From Allacma fusca (Eukaryota; Arthropoda; Collembola; Symphypleona; Sminthuridae), in NCBI GenBank assembly GCA_947179485.1, contig OX359249.1, positions 39,046,250-39,110,249 on the forward strand: a stretch of DNA of 64,000 nt, in the 5' to 3' direction. Each line of letters starts with the position of its first letter. Within the stretch, counting starts at the first letter, position 1. Below are positions 30,119 to 55,172 of this stretch, in pieces. A model generated the notes under the pieces. That model made no database searches and had not been told where the DNA came from. It saw only the letters and a program-made list of their open reading frames with translations. Made by a program: the position numbers and the translations under genes.

Positions 30119-45535
<15,417 letters not shown>

Positions 45536-47929: not shown

Positions 47930-48650
47930 ATATCGTCGGTGAAGAGGCAAAATGATCTAGGTACATAATCGATTAGAATCAAAATGATCTACATAACTTT
48001 TTCCCTAAAGGCAAAATGAACTGGGTACAAGCCTCTTTAAAAGCAATCTGATCTGCATGCAATTTTCCATAAAAGCAAAATGATCTAAGTGTTGGTATAA
48101 TTTTTTGTGTGAGAAAAATAGCTTCTGCAAGGAGGACACGTGGCTTATAAGGGCTAACTGTAATTGACCTAGGGTAGTGGGCTAATATTGTCTGAAGGGT
48201 TTGCTATTACTAAAGTTAATTTGACTTATTGCATCTAATACACATTGAATGCACATTGAATTGGTTTTCCCTTTAATAATTCTCAACCTGGAGTTTCTTC
48301 AAATCGTATTTTACGATCATCAAAATTATCATAACATTCATCTCATTATTATTAATAATTTTCAAATGTTAAATCATAATTGACAACATTTTTTTTCAAT
48401 GTTACTGAAAAAAATGGAGGCATTGCAGAATTGAATGCATATGTAAGATTTTTAATACCTCGCATATTTGTACATCGGCATTAGAATGTGTTTATTTCTA
48501 TTGTTTTTTATTATAGTTTGTATCTAGATCATTTTGCTTTTAGGAAAAGCTGCATCTAGATCATTTTGGTTTTAAAATTCAATGCAAGTAGATCATTTTG
48601 ATTCTAATCGATCATGCACCAAGATCATTTTGCCTCTTCACCGACGATAT
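47930..48650. mobile_element. Fold-back element with 32-bp periodic arms (long copy)
   Basis: A 721-bp element with terminal inverted repeats opening ATATCGTCGGTGAAGAGG on both ends (47930-47947 and 48633-48650 on the other strand). Inside the left arm the motif CAAAATGATCT or a close variant recurs at 47948, 47980, 48012, 48044 and 48076, exactly 32 bases apart. In the right arm its complement ends at 48536, 48568, 48600 and 48632, again exactly 32 apart. Sequence between motifs is only partly conserved. The centre (about 48100-48500) is AT-rich with no transposase frame. A shorter relative lies at 55087-55172. Class not assigned; non-autonomous. Confidence 0.75.
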
Positions 48651-49125: not shown

Positions 49126-49133
49126 GTAAGTTC

Positions 49134-49974
49134 CAGAGGTGTCCATCCTTCGAAGGATTTCCTTCAGAGAAGGCTTCTTTGAACGAATGAAGCGTTATCT
49201 TTGGCAATTATGAAGGGAAGGGAAGTAAGGCTGGAAAGGAAACGAAGGCTGAACGAAGGCTTCTGCTCTTTGCAGAAATAATTGAATGTGAAGGAACATG
49301 TTGTTTTTACGCCTTCGAACGCCACTGGAACTTGCAATTCAATCTACTATATTTTAGGAAAAATTCTTCCGTAACTTAAGTTCATGTACGTACGTACACC
49401 GTTACTCACCTGAAAACTATTTTTCTGGCGGGTCTGATTAACGTTATTCTGAAACATTTATATCACAAAGGCAGCATGATACCCGAAGCATGTAAGTATT
49501 TTATTCCCTTCTTTGTACATATGTAAGTACATACTGATAATAATTAATATATAACATAATAATTGCTGGAGCTTTGATTCGTGCAAGAAGAGCTAAACTT
49601 TCTATTAATACTGTTTCAAAAATGATTCAATATCGCGAATATTGCCTTTCTAGCTTAAAATGCAAACAGTGGTCTTACAATCAGTGCATCTTCTAACATG
49701 AATCGTTTTGTTTGCAAAAGCTCTGATTTTGTCACTTGTGTTAAACGATTTGCGATAAATAAATGAACATGGATCGACGGTAAACGCATGAAGGTCATTT
49801 AAATAATTTTTGAAGGCTGAAGGAAGGATTATAGCATGGTTTTGAATGAAGGAAGGGCGAAGGAAGGGTAAACATTCAGAAGGCTTCATTTTACGGAACG
49901 ATGAAGGAACGGGTAATTGTAAACGGTTCCCCTTCTGAAGGATGAACGAACGTGTTTTCAAATGGACACCTCTG
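49134..49974. mobile_element. Non-autonomous hAT-type element with 8-bp target duplication
   Basis: An 841-bp element with 13-14 bp terminal inverted repeats CAGAGGTGTCCAT, of the CAG-rich type found on hAT transposons. It is flanked by a perfect 8-bp direct repeat GTAAGTTC (49126-49133 and 49975-49982), the duplication length typical of hAT insertion. Subterminal regions are full of GAAGG/CCTTC motifs, plausible transposase-binding repeats. A minus-strand frame at 49650-49994 overruns the element end and shows no transposase motif. It inserted about 330 bases before the POMP start codon. Confidence 0.85.
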
Positions 49975-49982
49975 GTAAGTTC

Positions 49983-55086: not shown

Positions 55087-55172
55087 ATATCGTCGCTGAA
55101 GAGGCAAAATGGTCTACGGCAAAATGTCTTTTGTGCAGCACTTAGACCATTTTGCCTCTTCAGCGACCATAT
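55087..55172. mobile_element. Fold-back element, 86-bp short copy
   Basis: A near-perfect hairpin. It opens ATATCGTCGCTGAAGAGGCA and closes with the complement (TGCCTCTTCAGCGACCATAT), with arms of about 30-35 bases including CAAAATGGTCTA and a short loop. The termini match the long copy at 47930-48650, showing a dispersed family. It probably represents terminal sequences without the interior. Confidence 0.7.

Follow-up and report, generated by a model that had tools for sequence, protein, structure and literature searches.

The window, that is, the whole stretch of 64,000 nucleotides of Allacma fusca DNA that was analysed (GenBank assembly GCA_947179485.1, contig OX359249.1, positions 39,046,250 to 39,110,249 of the forward strand), harbors a fold-back element, designated W1, near which lie open reading frames (ORFs) with Pfam matches to the Shroom ASD2, immunoglobulin and tyrosine kinase domains and to OHCU decarboxylase. 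A second, shorter copy, W2, turned up when the window was searched for the terminus of the first, and the coordinates of both are compiled in Table 1. Two other elements were seen in the window. One is an inverted-repeat element at positions 41022-41543 (90-nt arms, 96% complementary, with 342 nt between them), for which a scan of the flanks revealed no clear duplication, and which is probably intronic, given that the ORFs on either side of it encode an immunoglobulin domain and a kinase domain, respectively. The other, at 49134-49974, is a non-autonomous element of 841 bp with ends CAGAGGTGTCCAT, a perfect 8-bp duplication, GTAAGTTC, at 49126-49133 and 49975-49982, and GAAGG motifs that cluster towards both ends at irregular spacing; we take it to be hAT-like from the length of the duplication and from its end sequence.

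Table 1. Features of the two copies of the family found in the window (positions are those of the window)
Feature	Position	Strand	Remarks
W1, complete non-autonomous fold-back element, subfamily B	47930..48650	.	721 bp including terminal ATAT
W1 left arm (arm 1)	47930..48087	+	18-bp terminus and five 32-bp units
W1 left-arm motif starts	47948, 47980, 48012, 48044, 48076	+	
W1 right arm (arm 2)	48525..48650	-	four units; aligned to the arm-2 consensus of 16 arms
W1 right-arm motifs	48622-48632, 48590-48600, 48558-48568, 48526-48536	-	all exact
W1 left 18-bp terminus, ATATCGTCGGTGAAGAGG	47930..47947	+	
W1 right 18-bp terminus	48633..48650	-	same sequence as left
W1 left ATAT	47930..47933	.	presumed target-derived (TA or ATAT duplication)
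W1 right ATAT	48647..48650	.	presumed target-derived, as on the left
W1 internal non-coding part	48088..48524	.	common to subfamily-B copies L028 and L044
W2	55087..55172	.	86 bp; arms of 30 bp, 97% complementary, each with a single motif, CAAAATGGTCT

An initial annotation had reported CAAAATGATCT-type motifs placed 32 bp apart within an inverted repeat, five in the left arm and four mirrored in the right, and all seven spacings of W1 are indeed 32 bp. Within the left arm, the motif at 48012 carries 1 mismatch and that at 48044 (CAATCTGATCT) carries 2. The inverted repeat was equally borne out, its outer 63 nt being 95% complementary and its 18-bp termini identical. Pairs of exact motifs separated by 10-40 bp number 4 in the window, as compared with a mean of 0.00 in shuffles. 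Self-identity at a lag of 32 amounts to 0.58 in the left arm and 0.70 in the right; other lags average 0.27 and 0.29, respectively, and the best 160-bp segment outside W1 attains 0.46. At all four ends present in the window (those of W1 and W2) the first motif lies at +18. The listed ORFs include none of at least 80 aa in the interior of W1. The computed RNA fold of the element reaches -232 kcal/mol (z = -11; none of 20 shuffles was as good), and a single strand is thus predicted to be able to pair through the arms, as is expected of a fold-back element.

The sequence between the motifs had been said to have drifted. As free drift this did not hold, in that the W1 spacers have a common consensus (score 120; mean 88.7 and maximum 101 over 5000 shuffles); it did hold for columns 19-26 of the unit, which show 38 mismatches in 72 cells, no better than random (mean 36.8), while the 24 other columns show 34 mismatches in 216 cells. 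Since the spacers share a consensus, the repeat is the whole 32-bp unit and extends beyond the motif; and because entire units are related to each other, growth of the arms by tandem duplication, one of the two explanations put forward at first, is supported.

The host assembly (392.7 Mb, 91 contigs) was searched with the 18-bp terminus, allowing up to 2 mismatches, as the initial annotation had proposed. This yielded 1741 forward and 1760 reverse matches, whereas a reversed control pattern gave 3 and 10. From the first 100 matches listed, all on one contig (C1), 38 facing pairs, 20 stretches around an end with no partner in the list and two neighbouring stretches were retrieved, so that every copy outside the window has one or both ends matching exactly. 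Owing to this exact-end selection, the sample leans towards young, intact, ATAT-bearing copies. Together with W1 and W2, this gave a total of 56 delimited copies; of the 20 lone-end stretches, 16 yielded a copy and four (L042, L043, L045 and L049) did not. The call of a fold-back element made from W1 is therefore upheld by thousands of end matches and 56 delimited copies. As regards size, 51 copies measure 86-865 bp, among which 38 fall within 688-865 bp and 22 within 844-859 bp, and five are longer. The copies have different flanks and a common set of arms and interior; W1 is 91% identical to L028 and L044 over the whole element, and another copy, L011, is 95-96% identical to L013, L022, L039, L017 and L036. 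The family is short, non-coding, present in high copy number and bounded by TIRs, as MITEs are, and its TIRs are long and contain internal tandem repeats, which places it in the descriptive class of fold-back elements.

Outside the host, the plasmids and phages searched gave no match and Rfam gave 0 matches. In a collection of viral contigs there was no match save one to the 18-bp terminus (L002), and in a collection of genome contigs one 20-base match was found in a bacterial contig (L001); both continue into unrelated sequence, and we take the latter as chance. A full-text literature search with the terminus and motif strings gave a single article, which concerns nitric oxide stress in E. 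coli.

Consensus arms were built from 18 and 16 arms of 20 copies, using only arms with an exact fifth motif. They define a family arm consisting of a 158-bp inverted repeat with the 18-bp terminus and five units, are collinear over these five units, and differ at 1 position in their outer 50 bp; the spacing is 32-32-32-32 in one and 32-31-32-32 in the other. The spacing was then counted in the 70 arms of 35 copies (38 copies minus W2, L046 and L037), which allow 280 intervals; 42 of these were unscored, for want of a motif with 2 mismatches or fewer. Among the 238 scored intervals, 202 were of 32 bp, 32 of 31 bp and the four others of 28, 33, 33 and 34 bp. Nearly all of the 31-bp intervals (30/32) are second intervals, and the 59 scored second intervals of both arms divide into 30 of 31 bp, 27 of 32 bp, one of 28 bp and one of 33 bp. 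The 32-bp spacing claimed for W1 thus extends to most intervals of other copies, with the qualification that one arm usually has a second interval of 31 bp. The right arm of W1 corresponds to the 32-31-32-32 type minus exactly one 31-bp unit, and it is the loss of this unit that accounts both for its uniform spacing of 32 bp and for its having four units where the left arm has five.

The question of selection calls for separate judgement of motif sequence and motif spacing, as the first looks selected and the second need not be. For the sequence, the consensuses of arm 1 and arm 2 were compared over units 2-5, where mismatches number 2/44 in the motif and 20/63 in the linker (P = 5e-4). Among copies, whose arms should decay almost without constraint, 85 arms compared with their consensus (10 of the 56 copies, being under 600 bp, and 7 of 92 arms, which aligned poorly, were left out) show 86/4641 mismatches in the motif (1.9%) and 232/7133 in the linker (3.3%; P = 4e-6). 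Judging from these substitution patterns, the motif sequence looks selected; the stronger contrast between the arms points to preservation of the motif during the time when the lineage was mobile, as would be the case for a protein-binding site, and the weaker contrast among copies may in part reflect subfamily differences or mutation bias.

For the spacing, the rigidity noted at first had been attributed to selection for helical phase, a proposal that found no support. The same 85 arms contain 13 indel events as against 323 substitutions, a ratio of 0.04; two of these events are losses of unit length (-31 and -32), one of which is probably that of W1 itself. Six spacers of W1 have undergone an estimated 42-63 substitutions, which at the measured indel rate would be accompanied by about 1.7-2.5 length changes; there are none among the W1 units, and the family arms have a single fixed one, the 31-bp interval. 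The lack of length changes looked significant under an assumed indel-to-substitution ratio of 0.1-0.15; at the measured value, helical phasing is not shown. Constant spacing therefore needs no selection, though selection may still act on it.

The flanks could be scored in 55 of the 56 copies (L037 was left out). Directly outside the terminal ATAT, direct repeats in the 55 reach 3 bp at most, and do so in 3 copies, about 1 being expected; an 8-bp duplication of the hAT kind was found in none of them, although a comparable scan in the same window does detect that of the hAT-like element. Read outwards, the flanks have A or G at position 1 on 89 of 110 sides, T or C at position 2 on 89, and T or A at position 3 on 98. 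The palindromic pattern RY-ATAT-RY is favoured, occurring at 23 of the 55 copies as against 211 of 1986 background ATATs (P = 5e-9), the background being the window and 20 loci with the copies there included. The constancy of ATAT itself should be read with the search in mind, as 99 of the 123 ends seen were picked by exact match to a pattern containing ATAT; the other 24 ends have ATAT in 15 cases, ACAT in 3 and something else in 6.

A single empty site was found for the 56 copies, and it is paralogous: the joined flanks of L014 match L033:5438-5509 at 61 of 72 positions, and the latter has the 4 bp TAAT, not ATAT, where L014 has ATAT-element-ATAT. As 4 bp stand in the place of the insertion, the flanks did not merely gain the outer ATATs while staying intact. 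Both terminal ATATs contain TA, and duplications of TA and of ATAT predict an identical empty site.

The initial annotation had asked whether a transposase-encoding relative shares the ends, and none was found among the 56 delimited copies, which cover one part of contig C1 and the window; no transposase able to serve the family was seen in them. The five copies above 865 bp (L027, L032, L033, L035 and L037) hold other DNA. As autonomous partners, L027 and L032 were rejected with longest ORFs of 79 and 81 aa, and in L033 and L035, with ORFs of up to 153 and 139 aa, the one ORF scanned in each had no Pfam match. L037 was also rejected, its inserted DNA being a hAT-like element, with Dimer_Tnp_hAT (Pfam) in one of the four ORFs scanned. 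This element of 4094 bp (L037, 349-4442) sits inside the family copy and is flanked on both sides by the 8-bp repeat TTTCACCG. Similarly, the subfamily-B copy in L033 is interrupted at about 607-2502 by some 1.9 kb of other DNA whose longest ORF is without Pfam match. The isolated terminus of L045 has no second end in 7.7 kb (up to 4 mismatches), and the one ORF scanned there had no Pfam match.

At the other extreme of size, W2 has in both arms the variants GTCGC in the terminus and GGTC in the motif. A copy of 91 bp, L046 (7453-7543), likewise has one motif per arm, of the same CAAAATGGTCT type, and the GTCGC terminus at one end, so that W2 and L046 possibly form a separate minimal subfamily. 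That arms with a single motif occur in copies as short as these indicates that the inner units are probably accessory; if these copies moved in that form, it suggests that the inner units are dispensable for movement.

Taken as a whole, W1 is probably a copy of an abundant non-autonomous family of cut-and-paste DNA transposons of the fold-back/MITE kind, whose units would be recognized by a transposase acting in trans. Each unit (core TAAAAGCAAAATGATCTA) would be a putative binding site for the transposase of an autonomous relative, the outermost, 18 bp from the end, presumably serving as the main site and the inner ones as accessory sites that would raise occupancy and help to pair the two ends. 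The transposase would pair the arms, cut at the ends and insert the element at TA within ATAT, in a palindromic target rich in A and T (or duplicate ATAT). Tandem duplication would add units to the arms and repeat-mediated deletion would remove them, from which the five and four units of W1 would result. The element is one of a fairly ordinary kind with an unusual target sequence.

With less assurance, we would place the missing enzyme with those of Tc1/mariner, because the target is TA-centred and palindromic. In Sleeping Beauty and other Tc1/mariner elements, direct repeats inside the inverted repeats serve as transposase sites (the IR/DR plan), two separated repeats being present per end, whereas the family described here has five head-to-tail. 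The direct repeats of Tc1 and Sleeping Beauty are roughly 32 bp, and their target consensus, AYATATRT, agrees with the TA at the centre of RY-ATAT-RY. That the element is non-autonomous, of Tc1/mariner type and with its inner repeats expanded, in an extended IR/DR plan, is the superfamily half of our best explanation and slightly less than an even call. Sleeping Beauty is described as inserting at TA with TA duplications (PMC8151067), a TA-centred target like the present one. On the other side, ATAT is more constant than a mere TA preference needs, though the search imposed it on most ends, and TA and ATAT duplications are indistinguishable at these ends. The termini (TCGTCGG) are unlike those of Tc1, and the 56 copies show no transposase.

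A Mutator-type Foldback element served by a MULE transposase comes very close in repeat architecture, as judged from Muta1 (PMC5225508) and Tm1 (PMC3169594). Muta1 of Aedes aegypti, a type 2 Foldback, has TIRs of 145 bp (158 bp here) in which a terminal motif, as in our family, is followed by tandem subterminal repeats, 9 copies of a 12-bp repeat, and it has more than 300 putative non-autonomous derivatives, some of them excision-tested in yeast, which often vary in repeat number and interior, as do the copies here (PMC5225508). It departs from our family, with its 32-bp units and ATAT/TA target, in having repeats of 12 bp set 3-4 bp apart, duplications of 8-9 bp and a known transposase (PMC5225508). 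For Tm1 of root-knot nematodes, the report (PMC3169594) describes arms with variable numbers of tandem repeats, unequal between the two ends, and MITE-like forms, all of which recall our family, but the repeats are of 13-15 bp, the duplications mostly of 9 bp and the target preference not clear. Likewise, in the Drosophila virilis group, the fold-back element Tetris and the MITE DAIBAM share their terminal part, have two alleles that differ by one repeat and, as here, no autonomous copy was found, but their repeats measure 220 bp and their duplications 8-10 bp (PMC4079207). Mutator Foldbacks leave 8-10 bp target-site duplications, whereas the direct repeats just outside ATAT never exceed 3 bp in our 55 copies, and this origin is improbable. 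As neither such duplications nor the 7-8 bp ones of P-type elements were encountered in the 55 copies, we did not file the family under either group.

A P-superfamily (Galileo-like) element with THAP-binding arrays is accordingly very unlikely, even though the long TIRs of Drosophila Galileo also contain tandem repeats, two of which were found by EMSA to carry extra transposase-binding sites, so that repeats of fold-back arms can serve as genuine secondary sites (PMC3688188). Galileo has TIRs of 0.5-1.2 kb, longer repeats and a THAP transposase, unlike the family here, where binding is predicted (PMC3688188). Least likely of all is that W1 is no mobile DNA but a regulatory or structural array phased at 32 bp for a host DNA-binding protein, as conserved motifs and near-constant spacing might suggest, given the thousands of end matches, the precise ends, the differing flanks, the one empty-site paralogue and a spacing whose constancy is roughly what would be predicted from the measured indel rate; individual copies may have been taken into use by the host later.

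Returning to the transposon family, we tentatively regard it, at somewhat below even likelihood, as a fold-back lineage outside Mutator and P, in which Tc1/mariner-like targeting of TA/ATAT is combined with subterminal repeats multiplied to five head-to-tail 32-bp sites per end. If this is true, arms of the fold-back kind have an independent origin in this superfamily, in which one or two transposase sites per end are usual. It is an unsettled question why certain DNA transposons have long ends with repeats inside them, and for this the one genome offers a natural series of one, four and five units per arm, with thousands of end matches and with spacing of both the 32/32 and the 32/31 type; by means of the series one can test directly whether additional sites increase transposition.

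Finally, we considered whether W1 itself had inserted beside an older copy, and rejected this, since the local alignment of its flank to the arm does not stand out (its score is equalled by 1016 of 1949 random stretches). Its left flank contains an 8-bp mirror of the terminus, which is uncommon (59 of 5000 random stretches) and was treated as chance. In L058, a short degenerate copy at 128-204 adjoins an 856-bp copy starting at 201, and the facing ends share one ATAT, as if a younger copy had inserted at the ATAT flanking an older one.
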